From Thunnus maccoyii (taxonomy: Eukaryota > Chordata > Actinopteri > Scombriformes > Scombridae): a DNA stretch of 64,000 nt. The position numbers and the translations under genes were made by a program. Below are positions 12,933 to 36,800 of the stretch, in pieces. The notes beneath the pieces are model-generated. The model ran no database searches. It worked only from the letters and a program-made list of their open reading frames with translations, and was not told the origin of the DNA. The stretch is from the NCBI RefSeq assembly GCF_910596095.1, contig NC_056535.1:22026505-22090504 (forward strand), read 5' to 3'. Each line of letters begins with the position of its first letter. The stretch's first letter is position 1.

Positions 12933-15900
12933 TTATGCGCAGGCTGAGATAGGGTGGCTGAGGCCACTGAAGTAAGACTTTTCTCGGTCGCTCATCAGCT
13001 CAAAGTGCAGCGGCTGCTGGCAGAAGGTGCACTCTGCTGATGAGTGGGGTTTCAGCTCCAGACCCACCTCCTTCCATGTGTCAACCAGCCTCTCTGTGGA
13101 GGGAAAACAGAAAAGACAGGAGGTCAATTTAATTTTTATTAACGAAATAAAGCAACCATCTTTGTTCCAGTCTTGTTCCATTAACTAAAATGTTAAGGGC
13201 TGCACTTATCATTTAGTACAACTTGTATTTGAGGAACCAAGGAACTTTGACTTTGATCTTTTAAAGAATGGCGAAAGCATGAAGAACATATGACAATGCA
13301 GACCAAAGCTTAACATCAAAACATAACTATACATTTAAGACAAGAAACTGGAAAAAACAATTCCCCATTACAAAAAATGAAAGGGGAAGTATCATGTCCA
13401 GAAGGGAGAAATACATTTTTCACCATCATCTTACCAACAAAGTATTTCATCATCTCAGGAGTGTGATGAGGTGTTGGGGCGATACGCAGAAGCTCCTCTC
13501 CCCTGGCAACCGTGGGATAGTTGATGGCCTGCACGTAGATGTTGTGGCGACTCATCATGAGGTCGCACACCTCTGTGTTCTTCTCTGCATCTGATACCTA
13601 AAAATAATAGGGGACGCATACATTAGAATGGAAGCACTGGGGACTAAAGACTACCTGTAGATTATTCCTGATAAGGTTCAGGTTGTTTGAACTGTAATGT
13701 GTCTGATGTAATGTCTGTGTGTGTGTGACAATTTTCATGTATTAGGGGAGAAATATCACTTACCCGAACTGGGATTATGTGGCTGGGGCAGTGCACTACA
13801 GGCAGCCCTGAGTCCATCAGCATTTGTCTGAGTAGCTTGACATTGCGCTGGTGTTTACGTCTCAGTGTGCGGCCCTCCTCCCCTTTCAGGACCTGGATTG
13901 ACTGCCTGGCTCCAGCTAACAGCATCGGTGGCAGAGAGGTGGTGAAGATAAAGCCAGCGGCGTAGGAACGAACCATGTCCACCAGCGCAGAGGTACTTGC
14001 GATGTAGCCGCCCACGCAGCCGAAGGCCTTTCCTGGAAGAGAACATGAGATATAGGTGATTAATTTTAAATTTAAGTTGTTGCTAAAGCCCCAAAGACAT
14101 TATTTTATTTATGTTCAACTAAGAATCTTAATAGAAAAAGCAACTTTAAAAATGCCCAACAGTCTATACAAAACCCGCCCCACTGTAATCTCACAAACTG
14201 AATCATCCTGAAATGGCAGCTGTAGGAGTAGCTCAGTTGCAGAGCTCTCTGTTAGGAATAATTGTCCCCTCAGCTTGATAGTGACAGGCACAGAGAGTAA
14301 TTCAATAACAGCATTACAAGATCCCACAGTCTCCTAGCAACAACAGAGCTGCTCCAGCAGCATACTGGATGACACAGCTGAGGCTTCGTTTCGAGTATAA
14401 CAACAAAACAGAGAGCTAGAAGATTCCTACTATCTGAGAGTAGTTGTTTTGATTCATGAAATTATATAAATCAAGAATACAGGGAATTTCCAATTGATGT
14501 TGGGGGGATTTGAGACAGGAAAATTTTTTATTCTACATTGTTATTAAGTTGTTTGTTCATTTCCTGTGTAACTGTCATTTGCTTGAAAAACAACTATCAA
14601 TCTTGAGCCCCTTTAGCTTAGACTCTCAGTTTTATGTGAACTATAAATGGCTCAAGCGATGGTTCAAAAGCATTTTGGCTTGGCTTGAAAGTCAGTGATT
14701 TATTTAAGTAGAGATTATAAGCTTACCTAGTGTCCCTGAGATGATATCCATCTTATGCATAATGCCATCCCGGTCTCCGATGCCTCCTCCCCTGGCGCCA
14801 TACAGGCCCACAGCATGAACCTCATCTACAAAGGTGATGGCACCAAACTCGTGGGACACATCGCACATCTCCTCCAACGGACACACAGCACCTGCATTAC
14901 AGAAAGAAGAGTTTAGCTATGAGTCAACGTACAGGCACAAACTACATCATTTTAGTCACATTTATAAACTATGTTTACTTTGCTAGACAATTATTAAAAT
15001 AAATTATTCTGATAAAAGGGTTTTTGTGCAAGCAGAAACTCAAATGTTTAGCTGTAATTTGCATTCCTTGGAATACATACATCAAGACACTTCAAAAACA
15101 ACCTGCAACTTTAGTCGTTAATATGGCCTGACCAATGATTCTAACAGTTGTCAATGTACAACCATGTAATAAGCAGATTTAATGAATGTTTTTATAATGG
15201 TAAACTGACCATCCATGGAGTGGACGGTCTCAAAGGCCACGATCTTCGGTTTGCTGGGGTCTCCCTTCTGCAGCAGCTCTCTGAGATGGGCCACGTCATT
15301 GTGGCGGAAAATGAATTTCTTAGCCCCACTGTTCCTGATACCCTGGATCATTGAGGCGTGGTTGCCTGCATCAGAGTAGATCTCACAACCTACAATAGTT
15401 CAGGAGAGAGAGAGAGAGCAGGTGAGAGTGAGAAATCTTTAAAAACAGAGTTAGCATCATTTACCACATGAATGAGACTCACTGATTAATGAATAGCTAT
15501 TAGTGTGATGGATATGTTGTAGATCTATAGACGTTTTTTTGCATACCAGGCAGCATCTTGGCGAGGGTGAAGAGGGTGGAGTCATTGGCGACAAAGCAAG
15601 AGGTGAAGAGCAGTGCTGCGTCCTTTTTATGGAGGTCAGCCAGTTCTTGTTCCAGTTCCACATGAAATTTACTCGTCCCAGAGATGTTCCTGGTGCCTCC
15701 CGCTCCTGAACCATGCTTTCGTAAAGTATCCCTGGAGACAGAGGAAGAAAGACCAATTAAATTTTATTTTCTATGTTTTTTGAAGGTGAAAAACAAGAAT
15801 GGTACACATTTGTGTGTCAGATGAAAACTTAAGGTGGGGCAAAACTGCAATAAATGGAAAAAAGAAATTAATTAAGCTGTTGATGTGACACCTTGCTTCA

Positions 15901-17587
15901 AGGTGTTACTGCTGTACAGGGAATAGGGAGGTTGGGCAAGTTCAAACAAGCTAAATGAAAAACAAAAACATCACCCTTTCACTGGGGCCCGTGAGGTTTA
16001 GGTGTAAACTATGGCCAACTAACAGTCTATACCCACACAAACAATGGAACGGGTCGCCCACGGGTGTCAGGTTGTACCAAGCTATTATATGCCATAACTC
16101 ATTTTTGTTCTCAGTTTCGTTCGCTCTCGGATTTCTACTCTCAGTGGGACAAGAATTTAACAGCAAACAGGCAAGACGAACAGCAAAAAAAAATATTTGT
16201 CTCATTACATGTATGCACATCTAGACCCAAATGACTGCATCAAGTGTGGTCACAACTTCTCCGATACTCACATGATGGATTGCAGGACCCGAGGATGTCG
16301 ACTCATGCCCAGGTAGTCATTGCTGCACCATACGGACACCTCCCTCTTATCCTCTAAAGAGCCGGTGAAATCGTCGGCCATGGGGAACTCGCTGGCCAGA
16401 CGATTCACCGTTTTAAACACACGGTATGTGTGGTCACTCTTCTTCTCTTCTATCTTCTTCTCAAAAAAGTCATCGTACTGGAAGCCGGACACTGTCAGAA
16501 CAGGAAGAGAAAACTTGCTTAATGTGGCTTGACAGAATGAAGCAACTCCTACTATGATGAAAGGTTCACTTCATCTTAGTTAAAAATGTCATAACATACC
16601 GACAAAACGACTAATTAGTAATTAAATCAAAATAAGAGAGTGAAATGGTTGGTAGCATAATCACACACTTTGAGTACAGTGTAATAGCTCCACTGTAAAT
16701 CAAATGAGTATGGCGGTTTGAATTTACTAATTTTACACTTAATTTATTTGTTAACGCTCCTAAAAAAAACTTACAACTGCCTGCCAGGTTGTCCTGCAGC
16801 AAGTGGGAGACCCTTTTAGGTCGCTGCTTCAGGAGGGTCTTTATTATATTAGTTTGGCTCCCTCCACTTTCCTCTATGGTACTGGCCAAGGATGGCTTCT
16901 TCAACTGGGAAGGGGACACTTCTGAAAAGGGTCAAGAGAGCAAAAAGAAAATAGTATCAAATTATGTCTAAAATAATGGGCAAAAAACAACACAGACTAA
17001 TTAACTTCTAGTCTTACCTTTCTGGACAGTGCGGACTTCCTGAACATCCTCTTGGAACTCCATGCCGACCTGGCGGACCACACTGCTGTTCTTCTGGCCC
17101 ATCTCTGCAGCCAGGAAGGGGCATTTGGAGGCCACAACCTGACCAGAGGGAGGCATAGGGTGGCCAGCAGGCAGCTTGGGCTCCCCTTGCTGTTTGGGGC
17201 CTGCAAGCAGGACAAAAGGAGTTTTAGAATTCAGATATATCATCACTCAAAACCTATAACCAAAACCATAAATAGCAATAATTATGTCAGTAATTAATAC
17301 AATTAACTCTGATATTTTACCTAATATAATATAATGTAATTAAGTGTAAAAAAAATATCTAATCCTTTGTGACCCTCACCTTCACTGGCAGACATGGGGT
17401 CCTCAGTCTTCTGGTGGGAAGAGGACGAACAGAGGGCACGAGCAAGTGGTGGGGCCATAGGTTTGGATGCCAACTCCATCATGACGGGGCATCGCTGAGC
17501 ATAGACCACCATAGACTTTTTGGGCTGCTGAAAGAAGGCCTGGGGCACACGAGCCAGGAACGGACAACGGCGCACGATCACATCCAT
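12933..17587 (-). CDS. alas1: 5-aminolevulinate synthase, housekeeping (ALAS1), ten coding exons, 626 aa
   Basis: Mitochondrial PLP enzyme that condenses glycine and succinyl-CoA to 5-aminolevulinate, the first step of heme synthesis. Coding exons, read on the minus strand: 17587-17380, 17200-17018, 16921-16775, 16491-16272, 15731-15547, 15389-15210, 14891-14727, 14032-13764, 13597-13435, 13093-12933. Every junction is GT-AG and phases join without a break: 1881 nt including the stop. Heme-regulatory Cys-Pro pairs lie at residues 8-9, 33-34 and 96-97. The catalytic core (about residue 170 on) carries [38 protein letters not shown] and SGTLGKAFG, whose Lys431 is the Schiff-base lysine and is split across exons 8 and 9. 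The C-terminus ([19 protein letters not shown]) and the N-terminus ([13 protein letters not shown]) are of ALAS1 type, not erythroid ALAS2. Human ALAS1 is 640 aa, so this is full length. Identity is very secure; only the N-terminal processing site is not visible. Confidence 0.97.
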
Positions 17588-18105
17588 TATCAGCGGTGTC
17601 GATGATTGTCAAGAGGTCTAAAATAGACAGGGGAGGGGAGAGATCAGATACCTCTGTTCATGAGCTGCAAAAACCTGTTTGGCAGGCTGTTGGCTAAAAG
17701 GAACATTACACCAGAAAAACACAAAGTACATTTCTTTCCTTTTACCTGGAATGCAATCAATCCATTCAAACGAATTAAGTGAGAAGATTTTAGATATCAG
17801 CAGTAGGTAACACCAAAACACAGTTCAAACTGGAATATTTCTACTTCAACTATTAGGGCACAGTAACTTTTTTCTGAACAGTGTTTTCTTCTTTCTGTGT
17901 GGAGCACACATTAATTGGGTATAACCTGGCAGAAAAATAGTATTCTATGAATTTATTAACAACAAAGTTAGCGGATATTTCAACTATAGCTGAGGAGAGA
18001 CATCAATTCTTTTGAGCTCAGAGGAAATGTCACTGAGTTTCAATGCAAATCAGACTGAAACTACTCATACAAGAGATTACACTCCAAGGGGAAAGTATTC
18101 TTTGT

Positions 18106-18480
18106 AGGACTGCAACTGATGATTATTTTATTTATTATTCAATTAACCTTTTAGTGTAATTATTTTATTGATTAATCAACTAATCCTTTGGTCTATAAAA
18201 TTTTTTAAAAAATGTTAAAAAAGGTTGATCACTGTTTCCCAAAGCCCAAGGTGACATCCTTACACGTCTCGTTTTGTCTCAACCAAAGATTTACTGTAAT
18301 AGAGGACTAAAGAAACCAAAAATATTCATATTTAATTCTTTAATTTTGCATTTTTTTCTTACAAAAAATTAATAAATAGACAATAAAATGGTAACAGTAA
18401 TAAAATAGTAGTAATAGCAATAGTAATAACAGTGGGCAATTACTGTCGATCGATTAATCATCTACTTGTTGCAGCTGTAA
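18106..18480. repeat. Degenerate 'GGGCTGCAACTAA' family repeat in alas1 intron 1
   Basis: Begins GGACTGCAACTGATGATTAT and ends GATCGATTAATCATC...TTGCAGCTGTAATT. The middle contains CCCAAAGCCCAAGGTGACATC and GACTAAAGAAACC, hallmarks of this very common teleost hAT-like repeat. Confidence 0.65.
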
Positions 18481-19641
18481 TTCTTTGACTGTGTTTTTTG
18501 TTGTTGTTTTTTTACTCTTTAATTCTCTAAGCAATTCAATAAAATTTAGGCTTTGGAAAAAAAAACAGGACATTTCCAGAAAGTGATAAACCTTGAGATA
18601 AGATGTGTCTACTTTTCCGAGGTCAATGACGAACCCTGGAGCTCAATGTTTAGTCTGTTTCATCATATAGGATGTTTACCTCCCCCGAGATCTTAAACAT
18701 TTCGTGATCATTAGTCTCTTTAGTTTTTCCAAGTTTGTGTCATGTATCCTGTTTAAAGCAAGCGGTCTCTTTGTATCAACATACATGTTTGACGGTTGGA
18801 CTGTTGTGAGGATTGCAACAGCTGTCTGCTCACGACATGGACATACAAAAATTATCTCTTTCTCTCTGTGTTTTATCTCATTGCGTAAAGACAGAAAGTC
18901 CATAACCTCTGACTATCCTTGTATTACACCCTCCCCCCAGCTGGAGCCCAGTCGGTCGAGGCACATTCCTCGACAGAGTAATCATTCACACACTTTTTTC
19001 AGCCTTGGAGTTCGTCGGAAAAGGGATACGAGGAAGTAGAAAAACAAACAAACCGTGTACTCTGAAGTCAGCGAGCTACCTGAGCTTGCCTTTATGTACC
19101 TTACCTTTCCATATTAATGACAGGTTGTATTTCTTCACCGCAACCTTTGAATCACTTCACCGGTGTTGCCTGAGCTCAGTCAGATGTCATTGTAACTTTA
19201 AATAGCGCTGGCCTTACTTGCACTCGTTTTTTTTTTGCCAGCTTGATAATAACAATGACACTATTTTTTACTGTAGCTAGCTACCTTTACAACAGACTTG
19301 CCCCTTTTAGTTGCATTCAGTCGTTTTGCAAGTTTTCATAACTCCCCTTCATGTGTGTTACGTATTGACTCCCAAAGCATTAAGCGGTTATTACACATTG
19401 AATAAGCAAGATACATATTTAAATACCACCAGCTATTTTATATTCAATGTATATATCATATTTATATAAACAATAATCTGTTAATAATAATGTTACAGCG
19501 CGTTTGGAAACCCTGAATTTAAGATCCGACCGTTCGTGATCCTTGCCGGTTGACCTAGCTTAACGTTAGCTAACTAGCTAAGAAGCTACAACCAGAAGTG
19601 GAAATGATGATGACCGTGAGAGCGGCAAATAAGAAACTTAC

Positions 19642-19803
19642 CGCTTTGAATCTTCACCCCAAACAACGAAATCTTCTTTATCAGACGTGCAGGTGACCGG
19701 CGAATGGCAGCGATGGTGATATGATGTGACACTCTGACCAAATGCTGGTATTTAGAGGAGATGAGGCTGGCGACTGCTTCGTTATCCTGCACTGAGGACG
19801 AAC
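19642..19803 (-). other. alas1: alas1 non-coding exon 1 (5' UTR)
   Basis: The 3' edge is a strong donor (AAGCG then GTAAGT, exon ending at 19642). It joins the acceptor ending at 19617/19618-equivalent in exon 2 (TATTTTAG before ACCTCTTG, exon 2 starting at 17617), which leaves 30 nt of leader ahead of the ATG at 17587. The 5' edge is inferred as about 30 nt downstream of the TATA box and is uncertain by several bases. The exon contains no ATG, nor does the leader part of exon 2, so scanning ribosomes would meet the ALAS1 start first. It carries the IRE-like hairpin near its cap end. Intron 1 (17618-19641) separates it from the coding exons. Confidence 0.75.
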
Positions 19804-19807
19804 GAAA
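19777..19807 (-). promoter_or_regulatory. Canonical iron-responsive element (IRE) hairpin in the alas1 leader
   Basis: Read on the minus strand. The 5' lower arm UUUCGUU (19807-19801) is followed by an unpaired C (19800), the 5' upper arm GUCCU (19799-19795), the hexaloop CAGUGC (19794-19789), the 3' upper arm AGGAU (19788-19784) and the 3' lower arm AACGAAG (19783-19777). The upper stem has four Watson-Crick pairs plus a G-U closing pair. The lower stem has six Watson-Crick pairs plus a G-U. Loop sequence, bulge identity and the five-base bulge-to-loop spacing all match the consensus bound by IRP1/IRP2. It would lie within a few bases of the predicted cap, the position at which IREs block 43S loading. 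The uncertainty is the exact transcription start: a start at 19804 would trim the outer lower stem to about four pairs. Confidence 0.8.
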
Positions 19808-19827
19808 AGGACGAGGACGTGCAGCTG

Positions 19828-19833
19828 CTTATA
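19828..19833 (-). promoter_or_regulatory. TATA box of the alas1 promoter
   Basis: TATAAG on the minus strand, inside CCTTATAAGC. It predicts a transcription start around 19802-19806, immediately 5' of or inside the outer stem of the IRE-like hairpin. A pyrimidine run (CCTTTTC, 19810-19804) sits at the expected start. An ACGTG core (19817-19821) and a CAGCTG E-box (19822-19827) lie between TATA and start; their use is not shown. Confidence 0.7.
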
Positions 19834-33800: not shown

Positions 33801-36800
33801 GACTTTCAGTAAAATGTTACCTACATAATTTGGGCTGAATATCTGACATCCTCAGTTTAGTATTTGAGGACAGACATTTATGCAAACTGCTTGCAGTGAC
33901 TTTGTACATATACGGAGAAAACGTTGGCATTTGAGCCTCCCTACCATATTTTTTATGAGCTCTGTGAAATTGGGGACAGACAGCTCGCATACACTGCTCT
34001 GGAGTCTTTCATTTCCACTGTGAGCATTCTGCTTTTGTCCTCTTCTCTTCACTCTACATAGACTGAATATTACTTATTTTTATGTCCACTGTTAAAATAG
34101 TTTCTTTAGAAATGCCCCAGATTAGACAAAAGCACCAGAGCTCTGTGGTTATTTGTGTTTGCACTGCACATTGTTTTTAATACTTCACCTCTTGCACTTC
34201 CTGTCTGTTCGGTTTTTTAGCCAGCTCGTTATAGTTTGCCATGCAGTGACGAATAAGCTCTGGCAGAGAGCAGTAGGCTAAACCACAGCAAGAATGTGGA
34301 TTCCCCCGACTGCGGCTGCTGCATGTCGGGATCATATCCAGGAATGTCAGGGCTCCACCTTGTGTGACTCATTGTTTCCACGACAACCACAGTGGAGAAA
34401 AGTAAAGACCATCCCACGTCATTTACAGGAAATGGTCATGATGACTCCTACTCTGTTAGGAAAAAAAAACTTGGTGGGGAAGTGACTGACACACGCCCAT
34501 CTTTCTTCCCTCAGGGTTTTTTTTAAACAATGCTGTCTCTCTGTTTCATTTAAGTTGCCCAGTGACGGGTTTAAACTTCAAGTGTTAACACTAAAATTCC
34601 TTGCAAGAGGTGGGTTTGTATTTATATAGATTTATATAAATCTAGCAAGTAGCTGGTTTTCATACTTCCCATAACAATGGTAGCATAAATTATGATGTTG
34701 TATTTTTACTTAAAAAAGCCCTGGCCTTTACTGCCTCATCTTTGATTAATGTTCAATTCTAGTCTCCTTTTATTATTACTATTATATTATATACTGTGAC
34801 CACTAACTATTACTATTACTATTAACTATAAATAAAAATATAGAATAAATGTACAGGTGGTCTACTCTTTTTAACCTAAGTATTATCTGCTGGTCTTCCT
34901 TTCAGGCTGCACACGGACTCAACAACATCTGTAAGACTGTATGCAGCCTGAAGGGCAAAACCCAGGGCAAAAAAGTCCACAGAGCACACACTTCAGCTAA
35001 TGAAGCTAAATTCCTGTGACAAGTTAATAACTTAATATGACTGGACAGTTTTATCAAACTTTCCTCTTCTCCTGACTGGATTTTGGCAGCAGGGCAGTCA
35101 GAGGACACTGTTTTGAGAGCTTAGTGAGTAAATCAAACTAAAACTGTAAAAATGAGGGGTGCAAAAACACTGGTTTGGAAAAGTTTCCCCTGTGGAAATT
35201 ACACCCTCGAGCTCCTGTATCCTCCTCCATTTAAAATAAAATGAAGAAAGACCATGCAAGAATTTTAGCGACACCAAATTAAGTAACATTCATAGAACAG
35301 GACAATTATAGAAACTAACTTTACTTAAAACAAGCTTCAGCTCTCCCTGCCAGGTTGGTAAAGTTGAATAAATGAAGAAATAATGGTTTATGTTTTGCAG
35401 CATGTTTGAGGAACAGACAATGATATCTCTGTGTAAATCTGAACTTCCTGTTTGTCGCAGTGCTTTGTATTTACCATTGTGAACTCTGTGCTGGTGGTCA
35501 TGCTCTGAAAATAAATGCTGTTTAAAGGTAGAGTCAGTCATTCTGGAGGAAGATTGTTGACCAAAAGAGGAATATAGCGGAATTCAGAGCGATGCATCAG
35601 CTGTAGAGTCACTTCTGTTCCTCTGACACATCATCATGAGTGTAAAAAAAACTTTCGTCCCATGTGAGCACAACAGTCCATCCACACTCTCTGCAGCCTC
35701 CCCACTTCTCACTCGACCTGCGTTCAACGTCTCTGTCCACAGAAGCAGCTGTCTGTCACCTGCAGCTCCTGATGAGCTGAGAGGACAGCGGCCAGACACA
35801 GGAAGAAATCAACAGTGTTTGTATTTCTTGATTCATTGATACAGTTAATAAGTTGAAAACACGTATACAGCGGGATATTTGTGTGATTTCAACAGCTGCC
35901 TGCTCAGATTATGCTTCACTAAACACAACAGAACAGACTTGGAGTGTAAAAAAACGCAGGGGGGTCTCCGTGAGACTGTCTCGGATTCAGTGTGGATTGA
36001 TACATTTAATAAAATGGAAGTGTATCTGTCCCATGAGAAAACACTCACTATGTAAACTGGCTACGACCTCTCTCTCCCACCATTCAACGGGTGCTGGAGA
36101 CAGGAGACTTTGATGTCCTCACATAGACAGCTGATGGCTTCCCCCTGATCTGTGCACGAGCACAAACGCCCCCTGCTGATTGGCTGGAATAGTGTTGTGT
36201 GGATAGCTCTGAGCCACTGTGTTTATATGCCCATTTACAGAGCCAGTGCTGTGTATGGACACAAGATTTTTTTTCAGCACACACACAGAACGGACAGCTA
36301 TGGAGATATTCGCTTAATTTGACATAAAAAGTATTGGATTAGAATCGCTGACTCTACCTTTTAATCTGGTTAACACTTCCTTCCTCAGTTGTACTCCCAC
36401 CTCATCTGAAACTGTGACTGAACCCCCTACCAAGTTTTATATGGTATGTTTCTCATCTGTTTCTGTGTTGTGTCTGTTCACAGCTGTGATAGCTACCACC
36501 ACCCACACCACAGTGATGACCACCACTCCTCAGCAATACCCCCAGCAGCCAATGGTATCACCTGGACATCCCCAGTCCTACCAGGGGGCCCAGTATCCAC
36601 CCTACCAGCCTGTACCAGTCCAGTCAGGTTACGGAAGCCAACCTGTGCCACAGGGCTATGGGCCTCAGCCCATGCCCACAGTGCCCTACCCGGGACAACC
36701 TTTCACACCAGGACCACCACCAACATATCAGGAAGCCAGTGAGTGTAGGTTCCTTATAATCTTGACAAAGAGTTACAGGTCTGATCAAAGGTCTAACAAA

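Follow-up and report, generated by a model that had tools for sequence, protein, structure and literature searches.

Within a 64,000-nucleotide stretch of genomic DNA from Thunnus maccoyii (the window), the leader of an alas1 gene, here termed alas1a, was found to harbour a hairpin that is a real and canonical iron-responsive element (IRE) by both sequence and structure. Letter-by-letter comparison further indicates that this hairpin is homologous to the IRE of ALAS2, and we consider it likely that one alas1 copy has preserved an ancestral ALAS IRE in its 5′ leader, where it would act as an IRP-controlled block on translation. Direct reading of the minus strand confirmed the coordinates, loop, bulge and pairing that an earlier note on this DNA had given for a canonical IRE (Table 1). 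The hairpin opens with U19807, followed by UUCGUU (19806-19801), C19800, GUCCU (19799-19795), CAGUGC (19794-19789), AGGAU (19788-19784), AACGAA (19783-19778) and G19777. Its lower stem (UUUCGUU/AACGAAG) comprises six Watson-Crick pairs and an outermost U19807-G19777 pair, and its upper stem (GUCCU/AGGAU) comprises five pairs, four of them Watson-Crick and the other G19799-U19784. The feature list used for comparison (cross-loop pair, AGU, N19, C8, five-pair upper helix and paired lower helix) was taken from the available text of PMC8466369, and all five of the sequence-structure features given there for true IREs were present in the alas1 hairpin. C19794 and G19790 allow the C14-G18 cross-loop pair, A15, G16 and U17 are the AGU at 19793-19791, and position 19, which should be U or C, is C19789. 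The C8 bulge is C19800, unpaired in the RNAfold minimum free energy (MFE) structure, and the N7-N25 pair of the lower helix is U19801-A19783, with five further Watson-Crick pairs beyond it.

Table 1. Positions of the three ALAS genes and of the alas1a features (window coordinates unless contig C4 is named; the window lies on contig C3)
Feature	Position	Strand	Remarks
alas1a	C3, window 12950-19812	minus	canonical IRE in leader
alas1b	C4 at 22.57 Mb (C4:22572000-22581999)		ALAS1-like N terminus; no canonical IRE found
alas2	C4 at 13.63 Mb		IRE in leader upstream of coding start
alas1 coding exons	12950..17587	minus	outer bounds approximate
Exon 2 start	17585..17617	minus	acceptor TTTTAG before 17617; 30 nt leader; ATG 17587-17585
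Putative non-coding first exon	19642..19812	minus	no ATG; donor GCG/GTAAGT at 19642; upper bound arbitrary
IRE hairpin	19777..19807	minus	read from sequence and RNAfold
18-mer GTTCGTCCTCAGTGCAGG	19786..19803	minus	identical in alas2 leader, C4:13639539-13639556 (minus)
Putative TATA box TATAAG	19828..19833	minus	sole TATA[AT] match

A strict scan, which required a CAGWGH loop, C8, five upper pairs with no more than one G-U and two or more contiguous lower pairs, returned a single site on the two strands of the window, that of the alas1 hairpin. When applied to 40 Mb of simulated sequence (one strand, following the dinucleotide steps of the window), the same scan returned four sites with two or more lower pairs, and no site had three or more. 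The loose pattern C-N5-CAGWGH was common, with 64 occurrences in the window relative to 46 expected, and none of 100 shuffles reached 64. In an isolated segment of 46 nt the IRE hairpin was contained in the MFE structure (-11.8 kcal/mol, z -1.89; RNAfold), and 11 of 200 shuffled sequences were equally stable. Since this stability is only 1.9 standard deviations beyond the shuffles, the case for an IRE rests on motif and homology and not on energy. The modest z-score would suit a meaningless chance hairpin, an explanation rendered exceedingly improbable by the rarity of the motif, its location and the 18-mer that it has in common with alas2.

An Rfam gathering search of the window returned nothing, and the IRE_I family (RF00037, cut-off 34 bits) gave no match at the alas1a site at E up to 10; the matches returned at this level were to unrelated families only and were rejected as chance matches. 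The IRE_I model also missed the fish's own alas2 IRE and found a ferritin-type IRE at 53.3 bits, hence the miss seems to be a property of a ferritin-weighted model, and the element is therefore classed as an IRE by its published features and not as a member of RF00037. Genome-wide, IRE_I gave two sites above the cut-off and, with E allowed up to 10, two more below it; neither alas1 nor alas2 was among them. This search scored no more than 82 of 441259 first-look candidates, and 6 of 14 control genomes also gave matches at the same E level. Aconitase C-terminal domains were represented by seven matches on four contigs which, taken together, are consistent with IRPs and a mitochondrial aconitase.

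A translated search with a 267-residue piece, run on the whole genome (782 Mb, 54 contigs), retrieved 16 matches, of which 12 (67-98% identical) were accounted for by three ALAS genes, with the other four (34-39%) located elsewhere. The names alas1 and alas2 are provisional and were assigned by N-terminal sequence known from the human proteins. The gene model of alas1a was built from sequence alone and its protein was spliced by hand. Pfam recognized in this protein the ALAS presequence (PF09029, E 3.7e-40) and an aminotransferase class I/II domain (PF00155), whilst its best solved relative was an erythroid-specific mitochondrial ALAS (5qqq). These ALAS domains bore out the ALAS1-type identity proposed in the earlier note, as did the residue identities over three hand-picked exon pieces (189 residues, the N-terminal piece left out), which were 159/189 between alas1a and alas1b, 141/189 between alas1a and alas2 and 142/189 between alas1b and alas2. 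CP motifs were present in alas1a, and alas2 has similar ones. The proposal that the hairpin lies on the right strand of an AUG-free first exon, downstream of a TATA box, likewise held in this gene model, in which the T at 19833 of TATAAG and the hairpin's 5′ edge are 26 nt apart.

Further features of the promoter region were also recorded. The palindrome TCTCGCGAGA (19859-19850, minus strand), which we take to be a core-promoter motif of human housekeeping genes, is located approximately 43 nt upstream of the IRE, in a promoter that also has a TATA box. Further upstream than this alas1 TATA box, TGACCTTTGACGTAA (19884-19870, minus strand) encompasses two overlapping candidate sites, presumably nuclear-receptor-like (AAAGGTCA, other strand) and CRE-like (TGACGTAA). 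A scan for sigma-70 promoters, with a model that is not meant for animals, found nothing. Elsewhere in the window, two similar proline/tyrosine-rich ORFs with two 11-residue motifs were observed on the plus strand at 36318 and 48503; we assume these to be Shisa-like, a Pfam search of both returned no match, and they are possibly the result of a local duplication.

The reading of the hairpin as a working IRE has its main weakness in the position of the cap. Were transcription now to start inside the hairpin, the element would be a relic, preserved as ancestral hairpin DNA and giving rise to an mRNA without C8 or the lower stem and without iron control. The usual TATA spacing places the alas1a cap near 19800-19805 for a TATA box at 19833, as such a relic would have it. 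Pyrimidine-purine steps occur 30 nt from the TATA T, at C19804/G19803, and 34 nt from it, at C19800/G19799, and are of the type at which zebrafish transcription generally starts genome-wide, according to the available text of PMC10695386; the TATA spacing and this zebrafish preference together indicate G19803 or G19799 as the start. Full leaders were folded from an assumed cap to the ATG, with caps at 19812, 19809, 19805, 19803 and 19800. For the first three caps the upper stem and the inner five lower pairs had probabilities of 0.56-0.85, the sixth lower pair 0.48-0.56, and the outermost U-G, where present, 0.13-0.22, whereas the probability of the hairpin pairs collapsed to about 0.1 for a cap at 19803 and about 0.01 for a cap at 19800, as is also to be expected of a relic. 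However, the six lower-stem pairs and the U-G are all intact, though nothing would require this of the pairs outside 19803 had they never been transcribed, and by a rough estimate there is a 2-5% chance of three or four outer pairs being intact if untranscribed. Three of four teleost ALAS1 5′UTRs derived from gene annotation or cDNA extension also contain IREs, as reported in the available text of PMC3904948, and even a cap at 19803 would leave the three lower pairs GUU/AAC that the human eALAS IRE has as printed, and with them the counterpart of its printed 23-nt core. On this evidence a relic is unlikely, and that the whole hairpin is contained in the mature mRNA is what we infer, together with IRP binding and a translation that answers to iron.

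The second alas1 copy was searched for a comparable element. On the coding strand of 35,961 nt upstream of alas1b, in stretches that contain no N, 211 CAGNGN loops were examined and no canonical IRE was found. Two of these loops had C8 and at least four upper pairs; in neither case was there a contiguous lower pair. Both were over 30 kb distant, on the far side of a TGF-beta-family ORF (PF00688) that runs in the opposite direction. Non-classical loops were scanned in the nearest 16 kb upstream, where this looser scan gave one candidate, approximately 4.8 kb away, with C8 and five plus five pairs. Its CUGUGU loop fits non-classical motif 3 of SIREs as given in the available text of PMC12230718, but its location in a TG repeat and an upper stem of G-U pairs alone led us to set it aside. 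Within the scanned region there thus seems to be no canonical IRE available to a putative alas1b leader, a statement that implies no position for that leader, and therefore part of the housekeeping ALAS in this fish may be free of iron gating. A blastn comparison of the 4.4 kb that precede the alas1a start with the alas1b region showed no leader similarity; the sole match, of 148 columns, lies at about 18.2-18.3 kb of the window, inside intron 1 of alas1a, and is probably a repeat.

The genomic surroundings of the two copies were also compared. A dusp7-like exon, assigned by Pfam to dual-specificity phosphatase, was located approximately 5 kb from the matched exons of alas1b on C4, and its closest paralogue (80% identical) approximately 85 kb from alas1a on C3. 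We presume the phosphatase neighbour of alas1b to be dusp7. Since dusp7-like paralogues neighbour both copies, the alas1 genes seem, from this one neighbour pair, to sit in duplicated blocks, as expected of teleost whole-genome-duplication copies.

The link between the alas1a hairpin and the ALAS2 IRE was drawn from the shared 18-mer. A genome search with GTTCGTCCTCAGTGCAGG, allowing up to two mismatches, returned 26 places, of which two were exact (alas1a and alas2), none had one mismatch and 24 had two, such that no third exact copy was found genome-wide; the control, the same pattern read backwards, gave 17 places. The 18-mer is also contained in the human eALAS IRE, printed as GUUCGUCCUCAGUGCAGGGCAAC in the available text of PMC12845348, and in an Alas2 primer in that of PMC8752087. 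Approximately eight freely varying positions and N19 agree beyond the constraint of IRE function, an agreement with a chance of about 5e-6 by simple arithmetic in which C8 and the loop were treated as fixed by IRP recognition and the 3′ arm as fixed by pairing. On the 3′ side of the upper stem, two positions differ between the human sequence as printed and alas1a, with both pairs kept (U-G to U-A and G-C to G-U).

Given the homology of the alas1a and alas2 18-mers, the alas1a IRE is probably a retained ancestral ALAS IRE. Retention and lineage-specific gain had both been offered as origins in the earlier note, and the exact 18-mer in common with alas2 and, as printed, human eALAS favours the former and counts against the latter. 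Independent gain, or copying from alas2 through gene conversion in this lineage, would be in keeping with the want of a canonical IRE in the 35,961 nt scanned upstream of alas1b, and with the available text of PMC3904948, in which none of five mammalian and none of five bird, reptile or amphibian ALAS1 5′UTRs had an IRE; because of these same cases, retention must assume losses. Yet a gain is hard to reconcile with an exact 18-mer that includes some eight positions not fixed by IRP binding, and outside the 18-mer the blastn matches with the alas2 region were weak throughout (E 0.5 or higher), hence the tract of any recent conversion would be tiny. Tunicate and sea urchin ALAS are furthermore predicted to carry IREs (PMC3904948, available text), and with the homology of the 18-mer these predictions make retention from an ancestral ALAS the simplest history, leaving gain or conversion highly unlikely.

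If the retained element is functional, IRP1 or IRP2 would, when iron is low, attach near the cap to the C8 bulge and CAGUG loop, and the bound IRP would keep the small ribosomal subunit from being recruited. Less ALAS1 would then be synthesized, such that porphyrins would not be made without iron. In iron-replete cells the IRP block on alas1a would be lifted. A more elaborate scheme, possible though rather doubtful, is that alas1a kept its IRE and would make heme only with iron, that alas1b lost it and would be iron-blind under heme control, and that the start site gates alas1a. The choice of start within approximately ten nucleotides (19803 or below versus 19805 or above) would then decide iron gating for each alas1a mRNA and, if this were true, start-site choice would constitute a transcriptional switch laid over the IRE. 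Textbook accounts of heme control set an iron-gated erythroid ALAS2 against a heme-gated ALAS1. A retained alas1 IRE suggests iron gating of the ancestral ALAS in this line, and a probable loss of the IRE in the ALAS1 lineage of land vertebrates. Two alas1 copies, only one of which has a recognizable IRE, offer a natural setting in which to compare housekeeping heme synthesis with and without iron gating within one animal.

Whether such an element had been described before was left open in the earlier note; the available text of Tzou et al. 2014 (PMC3904948) shows that it had, as a prediction, with IREs predicted in three of four teleost ALAS1 5′UTRs, called there the first demonstration in vertebrate ALAS1, and with retention of the IRE from a common ancestor proposed. 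The alas1a IRE is hence a further case of a described kind, with the same gene, the same leader location and the same kind of element. The cross-species conservation of the alas1 IRE, at the level of predicted IREs, is drawn from that text. The text available from PMC3904948 makes no mention of an exact 18-mer in common with alas2 or of an IRE-less second alas1 copy, and among the matches listed in a literature search, in the text available, none was found that tested a teleost alas1 IRE or described an alas1 pair with and without IRE. New here are the letter-level link between alas1a and alas2 in one genome, with no other exact copy of the 18-mer in the search, an alas1 copy without a recognizable IRE, and the cap-site sensitivity of the alas1a hairpin.

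Relative to other IREs, the alas1a hairpin has the loop, C8 and five-pair upper stem of the ferritin type (IRE_I), but a different stem sequence. With the vertebrate ALAS2 IRE, as far as the published sequences are available, it has in common an exact GUUCGUCCUCAGUGCAGG, C8, the CAGUGC loop and the GUU/AAC lower pairs, and, as with the IRE of this fish's alas2, its location is in the leader upstream of the coding start. The 3′ upper stem is AGGAU in alas1a, AGGGC in human eALAS as printed, and AGGUC, with one U-U mismatch, in fish alas2. Because of this mismatch and only three contiguous lower pairs, the fish alas2 IRE (C4 about 13639529-13639556, minus strand) looks structurally weaker than that of alas1a, and their MFE values were -3.6 (33 nt) and -11.1 kcal/mol (41 nt), respectively. 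The lower stem of the alas1a IRE, with its six Watson-Crick pairs, is longer than that of the ALAS2 IRE, and the modelled exon 1 of alas1a runs 135 nt past the hairpin, whilst in fish alas2 a donor-like CAG/GTGAGT follows within a few nucleotides.
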